IMG/VR virus record: IMGVR_UViG_3300030104_000070
Span: 1 to 43,003 of that record
Direction: 5' to 3' (one strand)
Length of the DNA: 43,003 nucleotides
DNA from: a virus
Position numbers and translations under genes: made by a program. Below the pieces are notes generated by a model, which was not told the DNA's origin, made no database searches, and saw nothing but the letters and a program-made list of their open reading frames with translations. Below, one piece after another: positions 34,900 to 40,788 of this stretch. Position 1 is the first letter of the stretch. Each line of letters opens with the position of its first letter.

Positions 34900-35106
34900 C
34901 TATTCTTTGTGTTTCTCTTTTAAATTAAATAGTGATGCTAATTCACCCTGCACATCGTCTATCTTAAATGCTCTATACAAATCATCTAAACCGTATTGAT
35001 TGTAGACTGTTACATTTATCTCATCCTTACATAAGGTGCAGTAGTATCTATCCATCCTCACATCTTTGAACGTTGCGTCTGCTCTATTACAACAATAACA
35101 TCTCAT
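34900..35106 (-). CDS. Small zinc-ribbon protein
   Basis: A 68-aa protein with a Cys4 site (CYCC at residues 3-6 and CTLC at 23-26) around ADATFKDVRMDRYY, then a helical acidic C-terminus. Zinc ribbons of this size often bind nucleic acid or RNA polymerase. It is the first gene after the class 1 promoter and dyad array at 35118-35206, a position typical of a phage regulator, but no regulatory role is shown. AAAGGAGAGAGAC precedes ATG 35106. Confidence 0.7.
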   Translation of the reverse strand: MRCYCCNRADATFKDVRMDRYYCTLCKDEINVTVYNQYGLDDLYRAFKIDDVQGELASLFNLKEKHKE

Positions 35107-35117
35107 GTCTCTCTCCT

Positions 35118-35171
35118 TTAAGTATATTTGTTTATAGTATTATTATACTTAAAACAATAATACTTTAAGTA
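35118..35171. repeat. Operator-like dyad array A
   Basis: An AT-rich segment with AAGTAT/ATACTT dyads: half site CTTTAAGTATA (35119-35127 area), AGTAT-TATT-ATACT (35138-35151) and TACTT-T-AAGTA (35161-35171). The last abuts the -10 of the leftward class 1 promoter. The whole segment is homologous to array B (39731-39804) in the same orientation, with a gap of about 20 bases. Binding of a repressor or activator dimer is inferred. Confidence 0.7.
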
Positions 35172-35177
35172 TAAGAT

Positions 35178-35206
35178 AGGGTATCACAACTAAACTGATT
35201 TGTCAA
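35178..35206 (-). promoter_or_regulatory. Class 1 promoter (array A)
   Basis: Minus strand: TTGACA (35206-35201), exactly 17 bases, TACCCT (35183-35178), followed by dyad TACTTAAAGTA. The same layout TTGAC-N17-TACCCTAT occurs at 39836-39808. The -35 contains the stop codon of the upstream gene (35203-35205). Although TACCCT is a poor -10, the conservation between copies supports function. Confidence 0.65.
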
Positions 35207-35421
35207 GCCACCTCCTTTAAATTAAATATAAAAGCTTTCTTTATGTTCTCAAACTCCTCTTTTCTTATGTGCATATTGAATATCTCTAAGTGATTACGAG
35301 CCTCTCTTATCGTTAGTTTCTTTGTTAGAATCTCGAATGTACCATCATGCTTCTCTGCTATTATAACATAAGAATCAGGTAAATCCTGGACTTCCATACC
35401 GAATGTAGTTATGTTGTTCAT
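35203..35421 (-). CDS. Hypothetical early protein
   Basis: A 72-aa protein from ATG 35421 with AAAGGTGACATAACA upstream; the frame stays open upstream to a TTG at 35550, but that stretch is covered by another gene in a different frame. The product is alpha/beta with DSYVIIAEKHDGTFEIL and a basic helix (REARNHLEIFNMHIRKEEF). Its stop codon lies inside the -35 of the class 1 promoter. No domain recognised. Confidence 0.6.
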   Translation of the reverse strand: MNNITTFGMEVQDLPDSYVIIAEKHDGTFEILTKKLTIREARNHLEIFNMHIRKEEFENIKKAFIFNLKEVA

Positions 35422-35423
35422 TG

Positions 35424-35564
35424 TTATGTCACCTTTAATACATGTGCTATAAGAATCATTACGAGTACAATCACAAGTAATCTTCCACTCCAGATTGTTT
35501 GATGTGGCGGCATCGGTATCGTCAAGAAAATAATCAATGCCGCTATCCAAAGTAGTACGTCCAC
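35424..35564 (-). CDS. Small two-span membrane protein with GTG start (46 aa)
   Basis: A GTG-initiated frame (35564) overlapping the YubB-like stop by one base (TAGTG), with GAGGAG 8 bases upstream. The product is two hydrophobic helices, VDVLLWIAALIIFLTIPM (1-18) and RLLVIVLVMILIAHVL (28-43), joined by PPHQTIWSG. It ends two bases before the next ATG. It replaces the upstream half of the longer TTG-initiated frame here as the real coding content. A small inner-membrane protein; unknown role. Confidence 0.6.
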   Translation of the reverse strand: MDVLLWIAALIIFLTIPMPPHQTIWSGRLLVIVLVMILIAHVLKVT

Positions 35565-36046: not shown

Positions 36047-36323
36047 AATCTTCCTCTTTTCTTTGCGTTACATTTGGGAAAGCATGGTACATTTTCCATC
36101 GGGTAGCCCTCAAGTTTCTTTCCGTAGATGCGTAGCAATCACCATCCAATTCACATAGCTCATTATCCCACTTGTATAATGCTTTCCAAACAGCTTCAAT
36201 TGCTTCCATCTGATTACTATTTAGTTTACCAAAAGCAGAATTTAATTTAAAGTCTTTCTCCTCTTTCTCTTTCTTCCATTTCTTTTGACGTGCTTCTTCT
36301 TGTTTTGTTGGTATGTATGGCAT
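36039..36323 (-). CDS. Hypothetical basic early protein
   Basis: A 94-aa protein with a strongly charged N-terminus (KQEEARQKKWKKEKEEKDF), a central helix (NSNQMEAIEAVWKALYKWD) and two Cys (CELDGDC). A near-consensus AAAGGAGGAAATATA precedes ATG 36323, which overlaps the methyltransferase stop (TAATG). No known domain. Expression should be high by its ribosome-binding site. Confidence 0.62.
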   Translation of the reverse strand: MPYIPTKQEEARQKKWKKEKEEKDFKLNSAFGKLNSNQMEAIEAVWKALYKWDNELCELDGDCYASTERNLRATRWKMYHAFPNVTQRKEEDYE

Positions 36324-37450
36324 TATATTTCCTCCTTTAGCCCTTCAAAGATATGCTTAATAACATCTACTGTCCATCCGTTACCTAGCATCTTGTAGCG
36401 TTGTGTGTTGGATACGCCACAGGTATAATTATCGGGGACAGTTTGTAATCTCTCACACTCAGTCACAGTAAGCTTACGCCAATGCATATTGTCTATACTA
36501 TCCCATTCATGTCTGTCGTAAGACAAACGCCCTCCTGTCCTGACACATTTAGACTTGTCTCGTATTTTCACCGCTACATTATCTTTTTGTACTGTTGTAA
36601 GTGCATTAGTCTTTTCATCTTTCCTGACTTCTAGGCGTTGTGTTGTTAGTCCTGCAACCTTTTGTTTATGATCTTGTCGCACACCATCTACTGTGTAACG
36701 TCCACGCCACGCACCACATCTTATTATCTCAGGTACATATCCGATAGCGTAGCCATGCGTTCCTGCACAGACTGTGCCTGATTTACTCTCCACATCGTGA
36801 ATAGTATTTGCTTGACTGCGATAGTCAGGGTTGAGCATATCAGGATTCTTGTCGCTTGCCCTACGCTTCTCCTGCAAGTATTCACCTGCACGATAAAACT
36901 CTGCTGTCTCTTCTTCTAATATATCTTTGAGCATGATGCCTTTGTCCTCTGGCACTCCATCAAAGGGAATGTTTGTCCAGTAAAGCCTCTTGCGGTTCTG
37001 CGCTGAGACAAGATTGCTGTTTATCTCTATGGGTTCTACACCTAAGTAGTCAGTAATAACTTGCTCACTCTCCTTCTTCATCTTCACATTCTCAAGTAGG
37101 AAATACTTTGGCTTGAGTGCTTTCAACAATCTGTCAAACTCAAAGAATAATTTACTGCGTGGATCATCAAAGTTTAAACCCTTACCGCCAAAGCTAAAGC
37201 CCTGACACGGACTACCACCAATGAGCAAATCAATCTTGTGTCCACAGTCAAACTCGTCCATCAAATGAGTGTCACTAGTCTTGATGTTCTTGACATCACC
37301 TAAGTGTATCATGTCTGGATAGTTTTTTCTGGCAATCTGGATTGCATACTTGTCAATCTCTGCTGCAAAGTAGTTTTTAACTGGTATGCCTAGCTTGTCT
37401 AATGCTATCTGCCCACAAGACATGCCATCAAATAAACTCAGTACATTCAT
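36323..37450 (-). CDS. C5-cytosine DNA methyltransferase
   Basis: A 375-aa protein with the ordered m5C motifs: I LFDGMSCGQIAL (6-17), IV GGSPCQGFSFGG (catalytic Cys82), VI FLLENVK (Glu120), VIII QNRKRLYW (151-158) and X MLGNGWTVDVIKHI near the C-terminus. The variable target-recognition part (about 190-320) contains GAWRGRY and TNALTTVQKDN segments seen in phage enzymes of this type. No restriction endonuclease gene is next to it, so a solitary protective role against host restriction is likely. Specificity cannot be read by eye. GAGGAGATAGTATA precedes ATG 37450. Confidence 0.93.
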   Translation of the reverse strand: MNVLSLFDGMSCGQIALDKLGIPVKNYFAAEIDKYAIQIARKNYPDMIHLGDVKNIKTSDTHLMDEFDCGHKIDLLIGGSPCQGFSFGGKGLNFDDPRSKLFFEFDRLLKALKPKYFLLENVKMKKESEQVITDYLGVEPIEINSNLVSAQNRKRLYWTNIPFDGVPEDKGIMLKDILEEETAEFYRAGEYLQEKRRASDKNPDMLNPDYRSQANTIHDVESKSGTVCAGTHGYAIGYVPEIIRCGAWRGRYTVDGVRQDHKQKVAGLTTQRLEVRKDEKTNALTTVQKDNVAVKIRDKSKCVRTGGRLSYDRHEWDSIDNMHWRKLTVTECERLQTVPDNYTCGVSNTQRYKMLGNGWTVDVIKHIFEGLKEEI

Positions 37451-38975: not shown

Positions 38976-39149
38976 TTATATCTCACTCTTGATTGTTAAA
39001 TTATCAATATCTTGTGCAAATAGATCAAGTTGAAATTCATTTCCTTTATCATCCATTACAATTAAATTTCTTATAAATGCATCGTTTATTTTTAAATCTC
39101 TTGATGCTGTTACTCTGATCTCTTTTACTTTATGTATACTCATGTTCAT
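38976..39149 (-). CDS. Small early protein (57 aa), first clear gene of the leftward block
   Basis: Found by reading: ATG 39149 (or 39143) with AGGAGATTTTCAA upstream, stop 38976-38978. The product is MSIHKVKEIRVTASRDLKIN...IRNLIVMDDKGNEFQLDLFA..., a mixed beta/alpha protein with a DDKGNE turn. It is the gene nearest the control region on the leftward side, so it should be among the earliest expressed. No domain recognised. Confidence 0.58.
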   Translation of the reverse strand: MNMSIHKVKEIRVTASRDLKINDAFIRNLIVMDDKGNEFQLDLFAQDIDNLTIKSEI

Positions 39150-39454: not shown

Positions 39455-39494
39455 TTAGTGTATTTCCCTCACATTTTATTTAAGAAAATCCTTT

Positions 39495-39565
39495 TGTGAT
39501 CACATAATATACGTCAAGAATACTGACCTTTCTGCATTTGTGATCACGTTCCTGGTGTGTTCACG
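39495..39565. repeat. Three TGTGATCACA-type sites
   Basis: TGTGATCACA (39495-39504), TGTGATCACG (39539-39548) and TGTGTTCACG (39556-39565). The first is a perfect 10-bp palindrome; the second and third share the extension TCACGTT. They lack the 6-base spacer of CRP sites, so a different DNA-binding protein is expected. Confidence 0.6.
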
Positions 39566-39576
39566 TTTTGTTCCAC

Positions 39577-39636
39577 CGGCACCCCCGTTCTGTTCTTGTT
39601 TTGTTCTAGGGGCCAGGCAGGGGGTTCGGGGGTATC
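39577..39636. other. G/C-rich island with long-range inverted repeat and G-runs
   Basis: The GC content rises sharply against the AT-rich surroundings. ACCCCCG (39581-39587) is an exact inverted match of CGGGGGT (39627-39633). The plus strand has GGGG (39609-39612), GGGGG (39620-39624) and GGGGG (39628-39632). Possible hairpin, G-rich structure or packaging signal; a 35-codon minus-strand frame also crosses it. Confidence 0.5.
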
Positions 39637-39730
39637 CGCTGTATAGTACATTACAACATAAAATTATCTCAGAAAAAGGTGAAGCCTTGCAACAATAATT
39701 CTTGGATGGCGGTGTACACTTAGAGTACCT

Positions 39731-39804
39731 TACTTTAAGTATCTTTGTTTAAAGTATAATAATACTTATAACACAAATACTTGTAAGGTATATTACTTAA
39801 AGTA
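39731..39804. repeat. Operator-like dyad array B
   Basis: Four related dyads: TACTT-T-AAGTA (39731-39741), AAGTAT-AATA-ATACTT (39752-39767), ATACTT-GT-AAGGTAT (39777-39791, imperfect) and TACTT-A-AAGTA (39794-39804). It is homologous to array A at 35118-35171 and likewise abuts a leftward class 1 promoter. Compared with A it has about 20 extra bases holding the third dyad. Confidence 0.72.
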
Positions 39805-39807
39805 TAT

Positions 39808-39836
39808 AGGGTATCATAAAGAAATCTTGTAGTCAA
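39808..39836 (-). promoter_or_regulatory. Class 1 promoter (array B), leftward early block
   Basis: Minus strand: TTGACT (39836-39831), 17 bases, TACCCT (39813-39808), then dyad TACTTTAAGTA. It matches the promoter at 35206-35178 in boxes, spacer length and flank GATACCCTAT. It would start an RNA with a leader of about 650 bases before the gene at 39149. Confidence 0.65.
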
Positions 39837-39869: not shown

Positions 39870-39910
39870 TTGACATTTACCCCTAAACCATGTTAACATA
39901 TAAGTATAGG
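39870..39910 (+). promoter_or_regulatory. Class 2 promoter, rightward late block
   Basis: TTGACA (39870-39875), an 18-base spacer, TAACAT (39894-39899), continuing TAACATATAAGTATAGG. It shares the 14-base core TAACATATAAGTAT with the two leftward class 2 promoters. It lies 24 bases before the terminase small subunit ATG and should drive the rightward block. Confidence 0.75.
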
Positions 39911-39934
39911 GGAAGTGAAAGCGGAGAGATAACC

Positions 39935-40477
39935 ATGTCTATGTATAGCCTATCACAACTAAAGACAGATAACGGTATAATAAGAACTAAGAGTTTATTC
40001 TATGAGTTATCTTATGATGATCCTGAGTTCGCTTTGTTTACTCTCAAAGAAGAAGACATAGTGATGCCTAACGGTAAACCTGCTACGTGTCTAGGTAAGT
40101 TATACATAGCCTTTGCAACAATGGACCCAACAGAATACCAGTTCGCTAACTCAGTGTTTGGGAGTTGGGAAGTGTGGGAGAAGATGCAGACAACAGTGCC
40201 TCTCAGGAAACCTATTGAGAAATGGCGTAGAGAGGCAGAGGTTAAACGTAAATCATTAGCCTTTGAGTCTGTAGTAAAAGAAATACAAGAGGGTGGACGT
40301 AGTAGCTTTACTGCAGCTAAGTTCCTTATTAACGAGGAGTGGAAGTCTAGAGAAGACGGAAGAGCAGCCCGAAAAGAAAAGAACGCTAAAGATAAAACTA
40401 CATCTGAAGAAGCTTTTGAAAGAGCAGGTGTAAACAACGATCTTAAAAGATTAAAAGATCAAGGTCTAATTAACTAG
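39935..40477 (+). CDS. terS: Terminase small subunit
   Basis: A 180-aa protein from ATG 39935 with GGAGAGATAACC upstream. An ATG at 39890 in the same frame lies inside the class 2 promoter and cannot be the start of that transcript. The protein resembles the T7 gp18-like DNA-recognition subunit of marine podoviruses: an N-terminal SLFYELSYDDPEFALFTLKE part, FATMDPTEYQFANSVFGSW (about 75-93), and a basic helical C-terminus (WKSREDGRAARKEKNAKDK) able to contact DNA or TerL. It recognises the packaging site and stimulates TerL (2168). The identification is by pattern and position. Confidence 0.75.
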   Translation: MSMYSLSQLKTDNGIIRTKSLFYELSYDDPEFALFTLKEEDIVMPNGKPATCLGKLYIAFATMDPTEYQFANSVFGSWEVWEKMQTTVPLRKPIEKWRREAEVKRKSLAFESVVKEIQEGGRSSFTAAKFLINEEWKSREDGRAARKEKNAKDKTTSEEAFERAGVNNDLKRLKDQGLIN

Positions 40478-40494
40478 CATATAAAGGTAAGCGA

Positions 40495-40788
40495 ATGGTT
40501 AAGACAGCTACAGTAAATAACATTACTTCAGGGTATGCTTCGCAGACTCAGTTAAATGAAAACTTTACTAATATTAATACTGCTCTAAGCAATACACTAT
40601 CTAGAGATGGTAGTGTACCTAATGCTATGAGTGCTGACTTAGACTTAAACAATAATGATCTTCTTAATGTAAAAGCTATATACGTTGGTGGTGTGAATGT
40701 TCTTAATGTTCTAGATAACGTTACTGTTAGTACTGCTTCTCCTTCAGGTGGTAGTAATGGTGACATTTGGTTTAAAGTTTCAAGTTAA
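40495..40788 (+). CDS. Small tail-fibre-related protein
   Basis: A 97-aa protein: SGYASQTQLNENFTNINTAL, SNTLSRDGSVPNAMSADLDL, then NNDLLNVKAIYVGG and a C-terminal SGGSNGDIWFKVSS. The LNENFTNI-x2-AL-x-NTLSRDG-x-VPN-x-M segment is the typical N-terminal part of phage tail fibres and side-tail proteins, so this is probably a short fibre or adaptor piece. The start is preceded by AAAGGTAAGCGA. Confidence 0.7.
   Translation: MVKTATVNNITSGYASQTQLNENFTNINTALSNTLSRDGSVPNAMSADLDLNNNDLLNVKAIYVGGVNVLNVLDNVTVSTASPSGGSNGDIWFKVSS

Follow-up and report, generated by a model that had tools for sequence, protein, structure and literature searches.

The window analyzed here, the whole of a 43,003-base virus record (IMGVR_UViG_3300030104_000070), contains two homologous modules in which a leftward sigma-70-type promoter is followed by an array of short dyads, and this pair is kept in close relatives and restricted to phages. 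We consider it fairly probable that both modules are operator arrays, spanning approximately positions +1 to +80 of two host-type sigma-70 promoters, that are bound by a phage-specific regulator, probably repressing them. The existence of two such modules, which was the central claim of the original prediction, was borne out, in their positions as well, by pattern counts, alignment and shuffles. The pattern TTGACW-N17-TACCCTAT occurs exactly twice in the record, both times on the minus strand (35206–35176 and 39836–39806), and the modules are composed as follows:

35171–35206, minus strand: module A promoter, TTGACA (35206–35201), N17, TG-A-TACCCT, with the −10 at 35183–35178
35114–35171, minus strand: array A, four dyads centered at 35166, 35151, 35134 and 35119 (approximately +5, +20, +37 and +52); 16% G+C
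39801–39836, minus strand: module B promoter, TTGACT (39836–39831), N17, TG-A-TACCCT, with the −10 at 39813–39808
39717–39804, minus strand: array B, six dyads centered at 39799, 39784 (degenerate), 39768, 39751, 39736 and 39722; 23% G+C

Start sites were estimated as seven bases past the −10, at approximately 35171 (A) and 39801 (B). Both promoters contain sigma-70-type elements (TTGACW-N17-TACCCT plus an extended TG) conserved above background; the TACCCT −10 itself is a poor match to TATAAT. In loci chosen by protein, the hexamers were nearly fixed and the spacer drifted: for module A, the entropy of the −35 and −10 columns was 0.00 bits vs. 0.83 for the spacer, and for module B, in small-terminase loci, it was 0.20 (−35) and 0.04 bits (−10) vs. 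0.92.

The unit of the arrays is an 11-bp dyad, TACTT-W-AAGTA (consensus TACTTWAAGTA), with centers mostly 14–19 bp apart. In array B the dyads lie at approximately +2, +17, +33, +50, +65, and +79 from the estimated start; two of the six are weak, and one of these two, at 39717–39727, falls beyond the segment originally described. In the middle, two sites take the variant forms TGTTWTAAGTA and TACTWTAAACA; these form a mirrored pair, so that the array as a whole is also palindromic, and the last dyad of array A overlaps the ribosome-binding site AAAGGAG. When aligned, segments A and B are identical over GATACCCTAT and their arrays are near-identical; the indel between them, first put at about 20 bases, occupies 13 columns and contains one degenerate dyad. 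Array A contains four half-sites (AAGTA/TACTT), a count reached by 1% of local dinucleotide shuffles, and array B contains seven, which none of 2,000 such shuffles reached. The latter is also the densest half-site cluster of the record; in 200 whole-record shuffles, the maximum cluster anywhere averaged 3.6 and never exceeded 6 half-sites. The first dyads are at approximately +2 to +5 from the assumed +1, and the arrays are downstream of the promoter, covering the leader, and not upstream of it. In sum, the dyads are short, repeated, placed relative to the estimated start site and kept in relatives.

The window is a cobavirus (Zobellviridae, Cobavirinae), given its homology to isolates of the subfamily and the same two-arm gene order. 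The nearest isolate is Roseobacter phage CRP-4 (Zobellviridae, Cobavirinae, Veravirus), which has the closest counterparts of the polymerase, primase, portal and small-terminase proteins, with 76% nucleotide identity over 3.9 kb and 86% identity in the portal. The phage is described as marine, Roseobacter-type. An RNA polymerase gene is absent from published cobaviruses (PMC6775973, PMC6918029); the RNA polymerase profile PF00940 had no match in the window and its control search was also without signal, so the absence of this gene rests on the relatives. The integrase profile PF00589 had no match in the window either, and its controls matched in 14 of 14 cases. A DNA cytosine methyltransferase-like ORF (36323–37450, minus strand) sits between modules B and A; it has a relative in Roseobacter phage CRP-603 and in L134, and the close relatives that were compared showed no counterpart.

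Scanning 2.9 million viral contigs for the pattern retrieved 49 stretches, many of them with two copies 3–5 kb apart. Since such a scan selects for the pattern, conservation was tested again on loci picked by protein only. Module A was found upstream of the zinc-ribbon gene in 29 of 30 protein-selected hits, the exception being a partial hit of 38% identity. For module B, 37 small-terminase loci were examined, 24 of them forming a close clade (81–99% identity); two of these 24 were too short in the flank, and the array is present in all 22 others. The promoter pattern is exact in 20 of these 22, with TTTACA in place of TTGACA in L110 and L111. The search for the dyads in related genomes, by which the original prediction could be checked, gave the same picture: the complete close relatives examined (G003, G004, G005, and CRP-4) have exactly two promoter copies each and keep the module pair. 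Between phages, whole dyads come and go, with the spacing mostly at 14–19 bp and the first dyad near +1 throughout, and the modules of CRP-4 type are missing 8 bases of the hairpin core and retain most dyads. As both copies are kept by relatives, a phage-specific regulator most likely controls both. The pattern hits L020, L053, and L032 (L053 judged through its near-identity to L020) have neither the array nor homologous proteins in common with the window and were treated as chance. Separately, most relatives conserve AGTGTACACCGC, which contains the palindrome GTGTACAC, immediately behind array B (approximately 39705–39722 in the window).

The distant cobavirus G001 has an array behind a rightward TTGACA-N16-TATACT promoter directed toward the small terminase, with the first site centered at +0 and the following ones from +14 onward; its other array stands behind a leftward TACCCT promoter that precedes early genes. 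Arrays behind promoters of opposite direction indicate that they go with promoters, and not with one RNA or gene.

Across 257 Gb of bacterial and archaeal genomes (84,980 cellular species), we found six unrelated promoter-plus-site matches, approximately the chance level and none with an array, and a host-derived module was ruled out because cellular matches occurred at chance level only. The same result bears on whether the arrays are operators of a host regulator that the phage exploits, for instance to sense host physiology. The early phage proteins tested show no confident DNA-binding domain, as this would predict; however, the pattern does not exceed chance in the genomes of any of these cellular species, and the arrays are confined to some zinc-ribbon-carrying cobaviruses and absent from cobaviruses of other marine Rhodobacteraceae, so that we deem a host regulator very unlikely.

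The repeats could also act in the leader RNA, where the palindromic array would form a long A-U hairpin that hides, in module A, the zinc-ribbon gene's ribosome-binding site or, in module B, shapes a short terminal RNA; we consider this improbable. Both leaders do fold better than shuffles (z-scores of −2.8 for array A and −4.2 for array B), the final dyad of array A overlaps the Shine-Dalgarno sequence, and in two copies the central repeat has its outermost pair changed from T-A to G-C. However, the antisense strands fold about equally well (−4.2 and −3.5, respectively), as expected for DNA dyads, and the 11-bp dyads have a 1-base center and cannot fold as hairpins. Likewise, in 12 distinct copies of the central inverted repeat, G-T pairs are almost absent (one G-T and one A-C vs. 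35 other mismatches, mostly conserved A-A and T-T), and covariation and G-U pairing gave no support to a sense-strand stem. No Rfam family matched at the gathering score, and an RNA element was discarded for want of an Rfam match, a strand preference and covariation support. Additionally, CRP-4-type modules keep most dyads without the hairpin-core bases, the G001 array follows a promoter of opposite direction, and module B has no adjacent start codon. The lack of strand preference and covariation, together with the G001 array, favors the arrays as DNA operators, probably of a phage-specific regulator.

The direct terminal repeats of ICBM1 and ICBM2, mapped by long reads, start with TTGTACATACAGCAGG followed by a C-rich run, and the termini of the window can be provisionally placed by homology to them. 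The elements of this region are:

39613–39652, minus strand: predicted terminase cut site, a block homologous to the left edge of the ICBM1/ICBM2 terminal repeats (AATGTACTATACAGCGGATACCCCCGAACCCCC)
39870–39912, plus strand: divergent promoter of the small-terminase and late genes, TTGACA-N18-TAACAT followed by ATAAGTATAGGGG, with one AAGTAT half-site

The homologous block starts at 39652 (minus strand), approximately 150 bp past the start site of module B; module B would thus be the last promoter at the right end of the virion chromosome, pointing outward, and module A would lie some 4.5 kb from the left end. As long as the virion chromosome is linear, module B would not be upstream of the early genes, and it would face them only after circularization or concatemer formation. 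In CRP-4, with module start sites estimated at approximately 1683 and 39812, homology would place the right end about 350 bp past the start site of module B. A separate promoter-like sequence, TTTACA-N18-TAAGAT (39209–39180), belongs to the early genes from 39149 onward; it comes from a scan that yields no more sites than shuffles. The original prediction had one sequence-specific control acting on two early transcripts: the shared control of both modules is upheld, but not their assignment to early transcripts, because module B, by homology to the mapped repeats, sits at the right-hand end of the genome, with its transcription directed into the terminase site.

Other conserved sequences were observed around the genome ends. 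In the divergent late-arm promoter, ATATAAGTATAGGG is conserved directly after the −10 in the window, in CRP-4 (L087, approximately 39680–39720, minus strand) and in nine relatives. Palindromes of TGTGATCACA recur within the predicted terminal repeat, close to its edge and to the early side of the terminase site (39490–39550 in the window), and also occur in the terminal regions of L110, L115, and L121–L127. ICBM1, ICBM2, and CRP-4 share a conserved block, CATCGGCAAGCAAACACCG ... GAGCAAGCCCTAGCAATCAAGAGGGGC, at their left genome ends, and none was seen in the window:

L089, approximately 480–600; L091, approximately 390–500; L087, approximately 40608–40700: left-end non-coding block

Dyad-free cobaviruses (45–56% small-terminase identity), CRP-5 and ICBM2 have a consensus-like promoter at the place and in the direction of module B, and the TACTTWAAGTA array is absent from the right end of dyad-free relatives, with one dyad in CRP-5. 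The right-end promoter is therefore more widespread than the array, a further level of control that one set of phages has. In those dyad-free relatives that were read or folded, a T-run hairpin is found just ahead of the terminase block; its loop length makes a simple terminator scan overlook it. The promoter and this terminator-like hairpin, approximately 160–300 nt later, lie between the small-terminase gene and the terminal repeat, and constitute a candidate gene for a small non-coding RNA:

L090, 38928–39185; L129, 325–160 (minus strand); L121–L134; ICBM2 (L089), 40360–40680: right-end promoter plus hairpin in dyad-free cobaviruses

Repeats of GACAGCTTAAGATTCTAC occur in the candidate right-end RNA of two dyad-free cobaviruses (L128 and L134), downstream of the right-end promoter.

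That a TTGACA-N17-TATAAT-like promoter keeps this place and direction without the array would agree with a role of module B in genome-end processing, in which transcription toward and across the terminase site would help to cut or package concatemers, a late step that the array would modulate. We give this little credence, as the dyad-free relatives seem to end the transcript at the hairpin before the terminase site, the G001 array is behind an opposite promoter, and module A is distant from the genome ends.

The predicted termini also locate module A at approximately 10% of the genome from the left end and module B just before the right end, a layout that resembles the T7 primary origin and phiOR. 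The modules could then be transcription-primed replication origins, each with a host-RNAP promoter and an A+T-rich array whose repeats serve as iterons. The low G+C content of the arrays (16 and 23%, vs. 39% for the record) would suit this function, as would the T7-like concatemers through which cobaviruses are supposed to replicate (PMC6775973). Nevertheless, it seems unlikely to us, since dyad-free cobaviruses with homologous replication genes manage without arrays and the GC skew does not change sign at module A, while its change near 39.5 kb coincides with a switch in gene direction. The skew was discarded as evidence for origins because its turning points in the record coincide with such switches. 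We also deem it very unlikely that the modules serve as transcription-primed origins in a T7-like phage that has no RNA polymerase of its own, with a dyad-binding factor, perhaps the zinc ribbon, both initiating replication and silencing the promoters; if so, the early-to-late switch would be coupled to replication.

Returning to the arrays as operators of a phage-specific regulator, the small early ORFs common to the clade are only three, arranged in the cassette p46–p70–(module A)–zinc ribbon:

35424–35564, minus strand: p46, a 46-aa hydrophobic ORF, first gene of the conserved cassette
35203–35421, minus strand: p70, 72 aa, just upstream of module A; second, weaker candidate regulator
34900–35106, minus strand: zinc-ribbon protein, 68 aa, CxCC...CxxC, directly downstream of module A; top candidate regulator

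The zinc-ribbon protein may be the regulator, an assignment that we hold tentatively. It occurs in every complete dyad-bearing genome examined (the window, G003, G004, G005, CRP-4 and, as a distant homolog with a profile match of E = 1.2e-5, G001); among the dyad-free cobaviruses searched, its profile matched only T5S1, and weakly (E = 1.2e-4). This co-occurrence is seen within related phages, is partly shared ancestry and is not proof. Near-identical arrays accompany zinc-ribbon proteins that are just 59% identical; as these differ at about 40% of their residues, only the conserved part could read the site, if the zinc ribbon binds it. Its structure model is of low confidence (pLDDT 65) and contains no helix-turn-helix and no known DNA-binding fold, and a sequence search for a solved relative found none (best E 0.43, spurious).

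The p70 profile had no match in G001 or T5S1, and the p70 model (pLDDT 78; strand-strand-helix-strand) has no DNA-binding fold and no PDB match with E below 0.001. p70 was consequently rejected as sole regulator, since it was not found in the dyad-bearing G001 and had no fold match. The protein at 38976, also put forward originally as a regulator, was dropped as a shared one because it has no recognizable relative in any other dyad-bearing genome searched. The 20 window proteins scanned yielded no helix-turn-helix domain, and the early phage proteins tested yielded no DNA-binding domain with confidence. ICBM1/ICBM2 have a helix-turn-helix protein, of which neither the window nor CRP-4 has a significant homolog. 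The original suggestion that a classical repressor is lacking and that the zinc ribbon is a candidate is thus supported in part: there is none among the early ORFs tested, and the zinc ribbon gains weight.

We propose that a dimeric regulator, found only in these phages, probably occupies the TACTTWAAGTA dyads side by side and would thereby mask the start site together with the first helical turns of the transcribed region. Both promoters would fire early, while the regulator is scarce, and would later be shut or tuned down. The regulator would most likely include the zinc-ribbon protein, encoded by the first gene behind module A, in a self-limiting loop; the transcript controlled by module B would begin at the right end of the genome, approximately 150 bp ahead of the terminase site. 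As the sites run downstream from the start point, their placement suits repression by blocking initiation or early elongation; repression is suggested by this position, although sequence alone does not separate it from activation. The spacing between centers is variable and not in whole helical turns, so that cooperative binding on one face is not obvious. The sequences establish the make-up of the two modules, their pairing, position, conservation and restriction to phages; binding, repression, timing and the identity of the regulator are inferred.

Cobaviruses are abundant marine phages that lack an RNA polymerase; two cobavirus genome papers (PMC6775973, PMC6918029) give no account of how transcription is timed by host RNAP only, and neither mentions promoters or repressors. 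The paired arrays represent an exact, testable target: a single short site in the DNA, the two promoters and a small candidate protein or two, all of them in the cultured phage CRP-4 (laboratory host FZCC0023). Binding of the zinc ribbon to this site, if it occurs, would make it a regulator of a lytic phage that differs from the helix-turn-helix proteins one would normally expect.

Phage operator arrays are known as a kind, and we found no description of this site, its pairing or its candidate regulator. The lambda CI/Cro operators consist of several short dyads per promoter, with two controlled promoters and the regulator gene beside its own operator. The cobavirus modules likewise have several dyads per promoter, two promoters and an adjoining candidate regulator gene; however, no CI/Cro-type gene or integrase was found in the window, the sites are downstream of +1, and there are 4–9 of them per array. 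The T7 phiOR promoter, used by T7 RNA polymerase, immediately precedes the right terminal repeat and is directed at the end of the genome; module B has the same right-end position and direction, whereas it is a host-type promoter with a dyad array. Small zinc-finger proteins of the TraR/DksA type reprogram host RNAP (PMC9239242) and, like the candidate, include phage or plasmid proteins of about 70 residues with a C4 zinc site. Nevertheless, the zinc site of the candidate starts as early as residue 3, with no room for an N-terminal helix, the zinc-ribbon protein had no match to the DksA/TraR family in Pfam, and the TraR/DksA system is without operator arrays. The best parallel in function is T7 Gp5.7, a 7-kDa protein of a strictly lytic podovirus that specifically represses the host-RNAP promoters A1–A3 (PMC5569994): in both cases, a small protein of a lytic phage would shut several host-RNAP promoters on the phage genome. 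Gp5.7, however, is a winged-helix protein with a weak contact to the −35 region that binds RNAP (PMC5569994), whereas the cobavirus modules contain multi-site dyad arrays downstream of the promoter and, as candidate regulator, a zinc ribbon with no helix-turn-helix in its low-confidence model.
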